Assembly: GCF_009671205.1 (NCBI RefSeq)
Contig: NZ_CP045309.1
Coordinates: 3,348,001 to 3,412,000, forward strand
Length of the DNA: 64,000 nt
Reading direction: 5' to 3'
Source of the DNA: Micromonospora terminaliae
Lineage (GTDB): Bacteria; Actinomycetota; Actinomycetes; Mycobacteriales; Micromonosporaceae
The translations under genes were made by a program, and so were the position numbers. Below the pieces are notes generated by a model that was not told the origin of the DNA, searched no databases, and saw nothing but the letters and a program-made list of their open reading frames with translations. Positions 31,335 through 35,474 of this stretch are shown here, piece by piece (the first letter of the stretch is position 1; each line of letters starts with the position of its first letter).

Positions 31335-31365
31335 TTGACGGCGCGTTACTTAATCTCGGTAAAGT
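31335..31365 (+). promoter_or_regulatory. Promoter of the candidate peptide operon
   Basis: TTGACG (31335-31340) and TAAAGT (31360-31365) are 19 bases apart in an unusually AT-rich patch for this genome. This predicts a start near 31372, about 40 bases before the peptide gene. The 19-base spacer is long, so strength or an activator requirement is uncertain. Confidence 0.55.
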
Positions 31366-31409
31366 GTCGGCACGGCTCCAGACGGGGCATCATCCGATTA
31401 CGGGGAAGG

Positions 31410-31526
31410 ATGGTGAAAGAAATGGACCAGATGGCCAAGGTGGAGAAGACCACCAAGACCCTGAGCGTCAAGGTTCGCAAGCTCGAGAAGCTTGAGACGA
31501 CGACGGCCCGCGGCACCAACGGCTGA
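31410..31526 (+). CDS. Candidate RiPP precursor peptide (34-38 aa)
   Basis: The small gene encodes up to 38 residues: MVKEMDQMAKVEKTTKTL, then SVKVRKLEKLETTTARGTNG. Three in-frame ATGs exist (31410, 31422, 31431); ATG 31422 has the best spacing from GGGGAAGGA. The Lys/Leu/Glu-rich centre (SVKVRKLEKLE) would form an amphipathic helix fit for an RRE (PqqD-like) domain. The small polar C-terminus TTTARGTNG could be the product part. It has no Cys, so it is not a classical lanthipeptide or sactipeptide. A strong hairpin follows and two RRE-containing enzymes come next. The precursor role is inference. Confidence 0.65.
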   Translation: MVKEMDQMAKVEKTTKTLSVKVRKLEKLETTTARGTNG

Positions 31527-31538
31527 CGGCGGCAGCAC

Positions 31539-31572
31539 CTTCGGCCGCCGCCGATTCCGGCGGCGGCCGAAG
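31539..31572 (+). terminator. 15-bp perfect hairpin between peptide and enzyme genes
   Basis: Bases 31539-31553 pair perfectly with 31558-31572 around the loop ATTC. It starts 13 bases after the peptide stop and ends 45 bases before the ThiF-like start. Partial terminators in this position keep precursor mRNA in excess over enzyme mRNA in many peptide operons. No U tract follows. Confidence 0.75.
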
Positions 31573-31616
31573 TCGCCGGCAAGCCCGTCCATTTCTTCCG
31601 ACAGGTGTGACGACAC

Positions 31617-32738
31617 ATGCTCCGTCCCGCGATCAAGAGCGCCCACCAGCCCTACACCCTGCCCGGTCACCGGATCATCGTCGGCCTGATGCAGTACGGC
31701 GTGGCCGCCGAGATCCAGGACGACGAGGAGGACAGCATCGCTCGGCTGCTGACCCTCATGGACGGCACCCGGGATCTCGACGCCATCCGCGCCGACTTCG
31801 ACCGCACCCACCCCGGGCACTCCGCCGAGAGCGTGACGGAGGTGGTCCGGGACCTCATCGATCAGGGCTTCGTCGAGGACGCCGCGGCCCCGCCGCCGGC
31901 CACCCTGACCGACGCGCAGACGGAGCGGTACCGCTCGGCCCGCCAGTTCTACTCGTGGATCGACACCACCCCGCGCGAATCGCCCTGGTCGGTACAGGAG
32001 CGGATCGGCGCCGCCCGGGTCGTCCTGCTGGGTCTCGGCGGCACCGGCAGCGCGGTCGCCGCCGGCCTCGTGGCCAGCGGGATCGGCGGACTGCACTGCG
32101 TCGACTTCGACCGGATCGAGCCCGGCAACCTCACCCGCCAACTCCTCTACGTCGAGAGCGACGTGGGCGAACCCAAGCTCGCGGCCGGGCTGCGGCGGCT
32201 GCGGGCGATGAACCCGCACGTCACCGTCACCGGAGAGGAACTGCGGGTCGGCTCGGCGGCCGACGTGGCCCGGCTGATGGCCGACGCCGACGTCTTCGTG
32301 CTCTGCGCCGACCAGCCGGACCAGCTCATTCAGGAGTGGACGAACGAGGCCGCGCTGGCGACCGGCACGCCGTGGTTCATGTCGCTCTACACCGGCCCCA
32401 TGGTGGTGGTCGGCTCCTTCCTGCCCGGCCGCACCGGCTGCTACGCCTGCATGATCCGGGGCGAGCGCCAGCGGGAGATCAACAGTGTCGGCCGGCCGCT
32501 GACCGACCTGCCCCGGCCCAACGCGGTGGTCGCCGCCAACGCCAACGTGGGCGGGCATCTCTGCGCCCTCGAGGTGCTCTACCACCTCGGCGGCCTGCCG
32601 CAGCAGACGGCGGGCCGGCTCTACCACCACAACGTCGCGCGCTGGGACCACCAGTACTTCATCGACGTCGTCCAGGATCCCGGGTGCCCCGCCTGCGGCG
32701 AGCGGCCGGCGCCACCGACCGGGGAGCCGGCCGGATGA
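31617..32738 (+). CDS. ThiF/E1-like adenylating enzyme with N-terminal PqqD-like (RRE) domain
   Basis: The 373-residue protein has an N-terminal winged-helix PqqD/RRE-like region (about 14-88, ending DLIDQGFVED). A Rossmann E1-like domain follows: GLGGTGS (139-145), DFDRIEPGNLTRQ (163-175, with the E1 Arg174), Lys187 in GEPKLAA, and two zinc motifs CYAC (275-278) and CPAC (357-360). These are the residues E1/MoeB/MccB enzymes use to adenylate a C-terminal carboxylate, so it appears catalytically complete, unlike the inactive ThiF domains of YcaO partners. It likely binds and activates the upstream peptide. Its stop overlaps the protease start (ATGA). Confidence 0.85.
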   Translation: MLRPAIKSAHQPYTLPGHRIIVGLMQYGVAAEIQDDEEDSIARLLTLMDGTRDLDAIRADFDRTHPGHSAESVTEVVRDLIDQGFVEDAAAPPPATLTDAQTERYRSARQFYSWIDTTPRESPWSVQERIGAARVVLLGLGGTGSAVAAGLVASGIGGLHCVDFDRIEPGNLTRQLLYVESDVGEPKLAAGLRRLRAMNPHVTVTGEELRVGSAADVARLMADADVFVLCADQPDQLIQEWTNEAALATGTPWFMSLYTGPMVVVGSFLPGRTGCYACMIRGERQREINSVGRPLTDLPRPNAVVAANANVGGHLCALEVLYHLGGLPQQTAGRLYHHNVARWDHQYFIDVVQDPGCPACGERPAPPTGEPAG

Positions 32739-34012
32739 CCGCCACGGCCACCACGGACAGCGTCGTCCGCTTCCGTCCGATGCACACGCAGATCTCGGAC
32801 GACGACCCGGACCTGTTCGTCGTGGGCCGGCCGGAGGTCGGTGAATTCATCGAGGTGCCCGGTGTCGGCATGGCGGCGATCCGCCGGCTGGACGCCGGAC
32901 ATCGGATCCGGGACGTCGAAGAATGGCTCGCCGAAAAACACGACGCGGAGGTGGACCTCAGCGAATTCGTGGACGATCTTATCGACGTCGGATTCGTCGC
33001 CAGTATCGACGGCGAGAACATCCCTGATCCATATCCTAAATTGCGTCCACACCTGCCGTGGCTCACCGCCTCGAACACCGGATGGTTGTTCGGAAAGATC
33101 GCCAAGGCGGCTTACGCAGTGCTGATCCTGGCCACCGTCGTAACGCTGTTTCAGCGGCCGGACCTCGTGCCCGGATACCGTGACTTCTGGTGGGGCGACT
33201 ACATCGGCCTCTGCGTTCTGGTGAACACCGTGCTCTTCTCGCTGGCGGTGACCCTGCACGAGCTGAGTCACCTCGTCGCCGCCCGGTCGCTGGGCGCCCC
33301 GGCCCGGATCAGCTTCGCCACCCGTCTGCACCACCTCGTCGTGCAGACGGATGTGACCGCGGTGTGGGCGGTGCCCCGCAGACAGCGGTACCGGGTCTAC
33401 CTGAGCGGACTGCTCTGCGACCTCGCACTGGTGTGCGGCGCGATCCTGGTGAACGCGTACGCCCGGCCCGGTGCGCTCGTCGAGCGGCTGCTGGCCGCGC
33501 TGGCGGTCACCGTCGTCATGTCGATGGCCCTCCAGGCACACGTCTACATGCGCACCGACCTCTACTTCGTCCTGCTGGACCTGCTGCGCTGCCGCAACCT
33601 GTTCCACGACGGGCTCGCCTACGCCCGGCATCTCGCCCGGCGATCGGGCCACCGGCTGCTGCCCCGGGTGGTCGGCGCGCCGGGCATCGACCCCACCGCC
33701 GACTTCTCCGCGCGGGAGCGGCGCGCCGTGCGTCTCTACGCGGTGGCCGTGGTGGTCGGCAGCACCGTGGCGCTGGCCGGGTTCATCGCGTACGGGCTGC
33801 CCATCGTGGTGCACGGCGTGCTCGCCGCCGCCCGGGCCATGGGCGGCGGCGGCCTGCTCGCCACCGTCGACGCGGGCCTGCTGATCCTGGTCGAGGGCGC
33901 TCTCCAGGTGCTGTTCCTGGTCACCTTCCATCGCCGGCACCGGCACCGCCTCCCCCGCCTCCTCGGGGGCCGACGGCCGGCGCCGACCGGCGCGGTCAGC
34001 GGCGCCGGGTGA
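32735..34012 (+). CDS. Membrane zinc metalloprotease (M50/S2P-like) with N-terminal PqqD-like domain
   Basis: The 425-residue protein has a PqqD/RRE-like N-terminus (about 18-95, FVDDLIDVGFVASIDGENI) and about six transmembrane helices. The zinc motif HELSH is at 175-179 within VTLHELSHLVAARSLG, and Asp275 in YMRTDLYFVLLD is a plausible third ligand. This resembles the intramembrane or YydH-like peptide metalloproteases seen in some RiPP loci, which cut leaders or export products. Its 5' part has rarer codons (ATATCCTAAATTG near 33030) than neighbours. It overlaps the ThiF gene by four bases and its stop lies inside a repeat shared with 35511-35561. Confidence 0.82.
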   Translation: MTATATTDSVVRFRPMHTQISDDDPDLFVVGRPEVGEFIEVPGVGMAAIRRLDAGHRIRDVEEWLAEKHDAEVDLSEFVDDLIDVGFVASIDGENIPDPYPKLRPHLPWLTASNTGWLFGKIAKAAYAVLILATVVTLFQRPDLVPGYRDFWWGDYIGLCVLVNTVLFSLAVTLHELSHLVAARSLGAPARISFATRLHHLVVQTDVTAVWAVPRRQRYRVYLSGLLCDLALVCGAILVNAYARPGALVERLLAALAVTVVMSMALQAHVYMRTDLYFVLLDLLRCRNLFHDGLAYARHLARRSGHRLLPRVVGAPGIDPTADFSARERRAVRLYAVAVVVGSTVALAGFIAYGLPIVVHGVLAAARAMGGGGLLATVDAGLLILVEGALQVLFLVTFHRRHRHRLPRLLGGRRPAPTGAVSGAG

Positions 34013-34045
34013 GGATCAGATCGACGACCAGCGCCGTGCAGCCGG
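33995..34045. repeat. 51-bp direct repeat, copy A
   Basis: It is identical to 35511-35561 at 46 of 51 positions, in the same orientation. Copy B is the 3' end of the GH63-like glucosidase gene, including its stop. Copy A therefore reads on the reverse strand as a fragment ending TALVVDLILTRRR-stop. The metalloprotease stop codon (34010-34012) lies within it. Confidence 0.85.
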
Positions 34046-34062
34046 ACGGACGGACCGTCCGG
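34042..34062 (+). terminator. Terminator of the peptide operon
   Basis: CCGGACGG (34042-34049) pairs with CCGTCCGG (34055-34062) around ACGGA, 30 bases after the metalloprotease stop. Confidence 0.6.
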
Positions 34063-34136
34063 AATGGCCGAACGCCGTGCGAGGGGCGGCGGGAACCCGA
34101 CTGCGCCGACCAGGCCCGGGGCGGCATGCTTCGGCG

Positions 34137-35474
34137 ATGACGACCTCACGCGATCAGCCCCGCGCGATGCCGGCCCGGCGCCGGCGTCGCCGGAGGGCGG
34201 CCACCGCCGTGGCGGCAGCGCTCGCCGCCGCGGGCGGCGCGCTCCCCCCGTCGCCGGCCCTGGCGGTCAACGCCACGCACGCCACGGTCGTGGGCGCCAA
34301 TCCCGTGGACTGGACGCCGCACGCGCTCGACGGGACCGTGTACCGGATCCTCCAGATCGGCAACCGGGTGTACCTGGCCGGCTCGTTCACCAAGGTCCGC
34401 AACGCCACGCAGACCGCCCAGCTCGCGATGCCGCGCCTGGTGGCCTTCGACGCCACGACCGGCCGGATCGACACCACCTTCCGGCCGGTGGTCAACGGCA
34501 CGGTGAAGGCGCTCGCCGCCGCGCCGGACGGCCGCTCGCTCTACCTCGGCGGCGCCTTCACGACGGTCAACGGCGTGGCCGCGCCGCGGGTGGCCCGGAT
34601 CGACGCGGCCACCGGCGCCCGGGTCGCCGGGTTCGCCCCGGCCGCCCTCAACAACCAGGTCAACGACATGCGCCTGGTCGGCGACCGGCTGATCCTCGGC
34701 GGGGCGTTCCAGACCGTCGGCGGGGTGACGCGACGGGCGCTGGCCGCGTTGAACCCGACCACCGGGGCCGCCGACGCGTCGGTCAACCTGCGCGTCGAGG
34801 GACCTCGGAAGACCAGCTCCGGCGCCACCGCACCGGTCAAGATCGAGGCGCTGGACGTCTCCGCGGACGGCCGGCGGCTCGTCTTCGTGGGCAACTTCAG
34901 CTCGGTCGCCGGCGTGGCGCGCCACCAGCTCGCGGTGGCGAACCTGACCACGACCGGCGCCACCCTCTCGGGCTGGTCGACCGACCGCTACCAGCCGCAG
35001 TGCGCCCGGACCACGCCGACCTACCTGCGGGGAGTCGACATCTCCGCGGACGGCGCCTGGTTCGTGGCGGTCACCACGGGCGCCGCGTTCCCGGGCACGC
35101 TCTGCGACACGGCGTCCCGCTTCGAGTTCGGCACCGAGACCGGCGGCAAGCAGCCCACCTGGGCGAACTACACCGGCGGCGACACCCTGCTCTCGGTGGC
35201 GATCACCGGCGCGGCGGTCTACGTCGGCGGTCACCAGCGCTGGCTGGACAACCCGCTCGGGCGCGACTCGGCGGGCCCGGGGGCGGTGTCCCGGCCCGGG
35301 ATCGGGGCGATCAACCCGACCACGGGCAAGGCGCTGGCCTGGAACCCGACCAAGGCCCGGGGCGTCGGCACCCAGGAGCTGTACGCGACCGACCGGGGCC
35401 TCTGGGTCGGCAGCGACACCACCACGGTGGCCGGCGAGTACCACGCCCGGGTGGCGTTCTTCCCGCTGCCGTGA
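34137..35474 (+). CDS. Secreted beta-propeller protein
   Basis: The 445-residue protein has an Arg-rich signal peptide ([20 protein letters not shown], cleavage after PALA-like ALA). Repeated blades follow with the pattern YLAGSFTKV, YLGGAFTTVNGV, ILGGAFQTVGGV, FVGNFSSVAGV, YVGGHQRW and WVGSDTTTVAG, each about 50-60 residues apart. These fit delta-60/PQQ-like propeller repeats, so it is an extracellular binding protein; ligand unknown. Two Cys pairs may form disulfides. The gene sits between two copies of a 51-bp repeat and converges on the glucosidase gene. ATG 34137 was preferred to 34077 because the signal follows. Confidence 0.72.
   Translation: MTTSRDQPRAMPARRRRRRRAATAVAAALAAAGGALPPSPALAVNATHATVVGANPVDWTPHALDGTVYRILQIGNRVYLAGSFTKVRNATQTAQLAMPRLVAFDATTGRIDTTFRPVVNGTVKALAAAPDGRSLYLGGAFTTVNGVAAPRVARIDAATGARVAGFAPAALNNQVNDMRLVGDRLILGGAFQTVGGVTRRALAALNPTTGAADASVNLRVEGPRKTSSGATAPVKIEALDVSADGRRLVFVGNFSSVAGVARHQLAVANLTTTGATLSGWSTDRYQPQCARTTPTYLRGVDISADGAWFVAVTTGAAFPGTLCDTASRFEFGTETGGKQPTWANYTGGDTLLSVAITGAAVYVGGHQRWLDNPLGRDSAGPGAVSRPGIGAINPTTGKALAWNPTKARGVGTQELYATDRGLWVGSDTTTVAGEYHARVAFFPLP

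Follow-up and report, generated by a model that had tools for sequence, protein, structure and literature searches.

Several ribosomally synthesized and post-translationally modified peptides (RiPPs) are already known to depend on a ThiF-type enzyme with a RiPP recognition element (RRE), namely microcin C, pantocin, Grc, enterofaecin, and Ind. The bonds made by these enzymes comprise a phosphoramidate, the bicyclic pantocin core, a thiolactone, a reported imide, and an indolylamide (PMC12150305, PMC12250964). The basic idea of an RRE-ThiF RiPP enzyme is therefore not new. Here, we describe a three-gene unit of Micromonospora terminaliae (genome size 6.74 Mb). It is located at positions 31410-34012 of the window, by which we mean the whole analysed stretch of 64,000 nucleotides (contig NZ_CP045309.1, positions 3,348,001 to 3,412,000 of the forward strand), and consists of a small peptide gene, an RRE-ThiF gene, and a gene for an RRE-containing M50 protease. 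The unit is very probably a RiPP operon, and it is a form of the known RRE-ThiF peptide-modification chemistry that recurs in many related bacteria. Its features are as follows:

31410..31526, + strand: precursor peptide gene, an open reading frame (ORF) encoding MVKEMDQMAKVEKTTKTLSVKVRKLEKLETTTARGTNG, 38 amino acids (34 if translation starts at the ATG at 31422)
31467..31502, + strand: conserved leader motif VKVRKLEKLETT, presumed RRE-binding segment plus the conserved E-T-T (based on 97 unique peptides)
31503..31523, + strand: variable tail TARGTNG, the presumed core
31539..31572, + strand: GC-rich 15-bp perfect RNA hairpin in the peptide/ThiF spacer, presumed attenuator or stability element
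31617..32738, + strand: RRE-ThiF (E1-like, MccB/PaaA-type) predicted peptide-adenylating enzyme, 373 amino acids, RRE at about residues 1-90
32735..34012, + strand: RRE-M50 membrane metalloprotease, 425 amino acids, 4-bp overlap with the ThiF gene (ATGA)
32759..33007, + strand: RRE (PqqD-like winged helix) of the M50 protein, residues 9-91
34042..34062, + strand: 8-bp hairpin 3' of the operon without a T-run (z -2.37), possible 3' end

A sequence-only reading of this DNA had noted a peptide gene of 34-38 residues, an RRE-ThiF gene, and an M50 gene overlapping it by 4 bp and encoding a PqqD-like N-terminus, all of which we confirmed. Its claim of one promoter and one terminator was not supported by our scan, in which the hairpin at 34042-34062 was not scored as a terminator. 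The small dedicated peptide-modification system that it proposed is supported by the co-occurrence of the genes at related loci. It had named the lack of a conserved small peptide upstream of homologous ThiF genes as a refutation, and such a peptide was found beside 94 of 99 of these genes.

Database searches at E ≤ 0.001 gave 233 relatives for the ThiF protein (P0001), out of 7995 candidates scored, and 265 out of 7998 for P0002. ThiF homologues at E ≤ 1e-60 were found in 19 of 200 genomes of the family, 13 of 394 of the class, and 5 of 16 of one genus (the samples overlap). The window's genus (27 of 160 genomes) and a second family within the same class (77 of 250) were also positive, which makes this a large ThiF-type branch, for which we found no test. 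Altogether, 99 loci selected by ThiF alone were examined: the window, three loci from GTDB contigs, and 95 places from genome searches. The latter are a subset, in which the places of the 250-genome family sample are only partly included; L047 was left out, being the same locus as L005. The ThiF sequences fall into 17 groups at 60% identity, and the window's group comprises 27 loci.

Peptides of one family were found at 94 of the 99 loci (upstream of ThiF at 61, downstream at 35, on both sides at 2), 105 peptides in all. None was found at L006, L075, L077, L078, and L171; at L075 and L077, the ThiF motifs are intact, and neither a recognisable peptide nor an M50 gene is present in the stretch examined. 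Three further loci (L054, L061, L180) carry three precursor genes in a row with differing tails at one ThiF locus. The profile of the family matches the window peptide at E 1.2e-9 in its own genome and retrieved 193 members at E ≤ 1 from 5.8 billion proteins. Among the 120 matches listed, none has an informative name or a Pfam domain, and the window peptide has no Pfam or NCBIfam match up to E 1.

The peptides share the leader motif (I/V)x(I/V)RxL(D/E)(K/R)xETT, after which the tail varies more. In the 97 unique peptides, Leu and Arg/Lys of the motif are invariant, Glu is present in 96, the first Thr in 95, and the second Thr in 85, and 8-17 residues follow the Glu. By raw count, the last residue is small in 96 of them (G 47, N 26, A 10, S 5, T 4, D 3, C 1, and M 1). 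These residue counts draw on 105 matches at E < 1, including L148 and excluding L176. In the 105-peptide list, the weak minus-strand match of L148 (E 0.96) was left out, and the L176 peptide MEKIKIKLLDKKQTTGVSGEGG (E 3.3) was added by eye. A filter requiring the match to end within 25 residues of the ORF end excluded nothing at E < 10. In the window's group, the tail always reads ETTxxR...G or ...GA, with Arg as the fifth residue after Glu at all 27 loci and Gly (23) or Ala (4) at the end. Elsewhere in the family, groups show tails with paired Cys (GCRNDLCG, VICACSPCTDC) or ends rich in Asn (SNSVGN). The conserved leader and variable tail anticipated by the sequence-only reading were recovered in 528 pairs of loci with one peptide each and a ThiF identity of 60-85%: mean identity was 0.72 for the motif versus 0.32 for the ungapped tail (tail lower in 494 pairs) and 0.47 for the gapped tail (lower in 471).

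The enzyme matches Pfam ThiF at 9.7e-37, and its N-terminal RRE is fused to the ThiF/E1 domain. PqqD was matched at E ≤ 0.1 in 51 of 69 alignment rows, the window's own protein not being one of them; its RRE is supported by fold comparison. Over its full length, the fold matches MccB and PaaA. The residues of the ATP-binding site, aligned with MccB, are intact and at least 90% conserved (GxGGxG, the Arg of NLxRQ, Lys, and Asp). No Cys occurs in the stretch of P0001 that aligns with the Cys184 site of E. coli ThiF.

For the M50 protein, the Pfam matches to M50 (0.038) and PqqD (0.035) are both below cut-off. It has a membrane-embedded HExxH and a site-2 protease (S2P) fold, as well as a PqqD-like winged helix that is supported by fold comparison. 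The RRE fold was thus found in both enzymes; instead of the HHpred search proposed earlier, we used profile and structure tools. An M50 gene is present at 77 of the 99 loci, always together with a family peptide. Because the query was the M50 protein of the window and the threshold E ≤ 1e-4, divergent proteases could have been missed. At 12 loci with paired-Cys tails (L005, L046, L048-L051, L130-L135), a protein of the DUF3105 cluster is encoded after the M50 gene. At L158, the M50 gene is followed by a gene for a second protein with paired CxxC motifs, which by eye resembles the C-terminus of ocin-ThiF proteins.

The hairpin between the peptide and ThiF genes of the window has a minimum free energy z-score of -4.98. 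Perfect stems of at least 10 bp occur in 33 of 49 peptide-ThiF spacers (55-130 nt) versus 5 of 141 control gaps, taken on the same strand elsewhere in these loci and of comparable length, and z < -2 was reached in 41 of 49 versus 31 of 141. The stem sequences vary from locus to locus, as expected if the pairing itself is kept. The hairpin is rarer after downstream-placed peptides (z < -2 in 16 of 41, stem of at least 8 bp in 7 of 41). The spacer set used for stem sequences and downstream peptides contains some multi-peptide loci, whose spacers can overlap (L159, L180).

The four scanned neighbours of the operon encode, according to Pfam, a HAD hydrolase, a DUF4184 protein, a YkuD protein, and a beta-propeller, with no evident link to the operon. 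The beta-propeller (DUF5122) gene is located just 3' of it on the same strand (34077-35474) and is not common to the related loci examined. With up to three flanking genes compared on each side, the window shares no flanking-gene cluster with the other loci. Clustering identified recurrent neighbours elsewhere that are absent from the window, with one representative per cluster named by Pfam: a BTAD-domain regulator (21 loci), which we take to be SARP-type, DUF6879 (21 loci), and DUF3105 (12 loci). The DUF6879-cluster protein (L066, L069-L073, and others) is encoded between ThiF and M50 or downstream, at many loci whose peptides have Asn-rich tails.

We infer an order of events from leader binding through C-terminal adenylation, cyclisation, and M50 cleavage to export. 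The peptide would be the precursor, with the conserved motif as its leader and the tail of several residues as its core. The RRE of the ThiF protein would grip the leader, and the E1 domain would consume ATP in adenylating one of the peptide's carboxylates, the C-terminal carboxylate (Gly in this strain) being the likeliest. An attack on this acyl-adenylate from inside the peptide itself would then leave the tail dehydrated and cyclised. For this course, C-terminal adenylation followed by cyclisation, we consider the arguments evenly balanced. Among the candidate nucleophiles, the Thr following the conserved Glu is the one kept most widely; its attack would give a macrolactone, which we regard as an unlikely form of the ring. 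The M50 protein would hold the same leader at the membrane via its own RRE, cut near ETT, and release the product. Precursor levels are probably held above enzyme levels by the hairpin that follows the peptide gene.

Several observations weigh against this scheme. When the peptide was joined to ThiF in silico, AlphaFold2 (AF2) placed the leader as a free helix undocked from the RRE, with a confidence score (pLDDT) of about 62-76. M50 was not detected at 17 of the 94 peptide-bearing loci, with at least 4.1 kb downstream of ThiF covered at each. The small C-terminal residues partly reflect shared ancestry, 70 of the 105 peptides coming from three of the 17 ThiF groups. The tail is not hypervariable: its mean gapped identity is 0.47, and in 57 of 528 pairs it is no lower than that of the motif. 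The first Thr is not universal, since L167 has Met and L182 has Pro at this position, and E-T-T may be conserved as a protease-recognition element instead.

The conserved Glu, kept in 96 of the 97 unique peptides, could itself be the residue that is activated. ThiF would then activate the Glu side chain of E-T-T, as in PaaA or Grc, and join it to a nearby nucleophile or backbone nitrogen, with the tail as a follower peptide. Such chemistry has precedents in PaaA, which modifies Glu residues, and GrcB, which cross-links Glu to Cys (PMC12250964), and PaaA is the second-best RiPP fold match of the ThiF enzyme. This explanation gives no reason why the last residue is confined to small types, and the L176 peptide (picked by eye, on the other strand) has Gln for Glu, yet ThiF and M50 are kept there; we consider it possible but unlikely. 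An amidated or extended C-terminus without a ring might also arise, by reaction of the C-terminal adenylate with a small amine or an amino acid from outside the peptide. No single tail nucleophile is common to all cores, which would fit, and EnfB is reported to amidate activated C-termini (PMC12250964). No dedicated amine-supply gene was recognised by Pfam among the four window neighbours, however, and we regard this outcome as distinctly unlikely.

A microcin C-like peptide-nucleotide, in which the adenylate becomes a phosphoramidate on the last residue, seems improbable. MccB uses the side-chain amide of Asn, and the peptides of the window's group end in Gly or Ala at 27 of 27 loci and lack such an amide. 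A role outside natural products, be it as a small ubiquitin-like or sulfur-carrier substrate or as a conjugated tag, is very improbable for the peptide. The E1 family and the C-terminal Gly at 23 of 27 loci of the window's group would suit this role, but with 34-38 residues (down to 20 in the family with the starts chosen) the peptide is too short for a beta-grasp domain, the enzyme lacks the Cys of E. coli ThiF, its RRE is fused to the E1 domain, and the tail varies. Several homologues are named 'TOMM precursor leader peptide-binding protein' in databases, and the TIGR03882 score of 36.3 is just below the cut-off of 36.9, as if the ThiF protein were merely the docking partner of a YcaO cyclodehydratase encoded elsewhere (azole-type RiPP). 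We hold this to be extremely improbable. The sequence-only reading had noted no YcaO gene in view, and YcaO has no match in the window's own genome and none in 8 of 25 tested genomes carrying the locus. The other 17 do have YcaO, at a distance of about 180 kb from a ThiF locus in the closest case on one contig (draft contigs could not be ordered), and the ATP-site residues of ThiF are kept.

Returning to C-terminal adenylation and cyclisation, one specific version is that the E1-like enzyme joins the small C-terminal residue to the conserved Thr (or the Arg of the window's group) and the RRE-guided intramembrane M50 protease cuts and releases the product. This three-gene signalling or antibiotic peptide system, with a tail that varies by clade (Arg-Gly, paired-Cys, Asn-rich), is a speculative and, on balance, doubtful proposal. 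Such a ring was not found among the ThiF-type chemistries in the accessible parts of PMC12150305 and PMC12250964. The fusion of an RRE to the intramembrane protease points to leader recognition as a guide for both modification and release. With no more than three small genes to express and with tails that vary among clades, the chemistry lends itself to direct testing.

The sequence-only reading did not recognise the gene set as a described class. This holds for the peptide family and the RRE-M50 partner, of which our literature searches (compared in accessible part: PMC12250964, PMC12150305, PMC10885120, PMC12710340, PMC7470986) found no description, although figure S1 of the supplement to PMC12150305, on other RRE-ThiF groups, may already hold the branch. 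It does not hold for RRE-ThiF RiPPs, which are a known kind. The main text of PMC12250964 does not mention actinobacteria, Micromonospora, or Streptomyces. The minimal operons of microcin C have an MccB (3H5N, 3H9J, 6OM4) with about 24-25% identity to the window ThiF; the window differs in a precursor with a leader, in the M50 partner, and in the C-terminal residue, Gly in place of the Asn typical of microcin C. Compared to pantocin A (PaaA, 5FF5), the window has the M50 gene and a different precursor motif, and neither an oxygenase nor an EamA-type exporter was found among the four neighbours scanned, nor any other transporter. The RRE proteins of lasso peptides, TfuB1 and TbiB1 (6JX3, 5V1U), are also among the closest known systems; the lasso peptide protease is a cysteine peptidase, and no lactam synthetase was found among the same four neighbours. 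According to PMC12150305 and PMC12250964, the locus resembles Ind, Grc, and enterofaecin of streptococci and enterococci in combining a small precursor with RRE-ThiF, but it differs from them in its actinobacterial hosts and in tails without the Trp/Ile core pattern. The leader motif (V/I)RKA of EnfA resembles (I/V)RKL of the window family, and the IndA core EDTTNWYFI has D-T-T where the window family has E-T-T. Like Ind, the window has a dedicated protease, which is an RRE-fused M50 and not an M16 enzyme, and in this respect it also resembles EpeP, TglG, and TmoG, which are likewise membrane M50 zinc proteases of RiPP pathways (PMC10885120).
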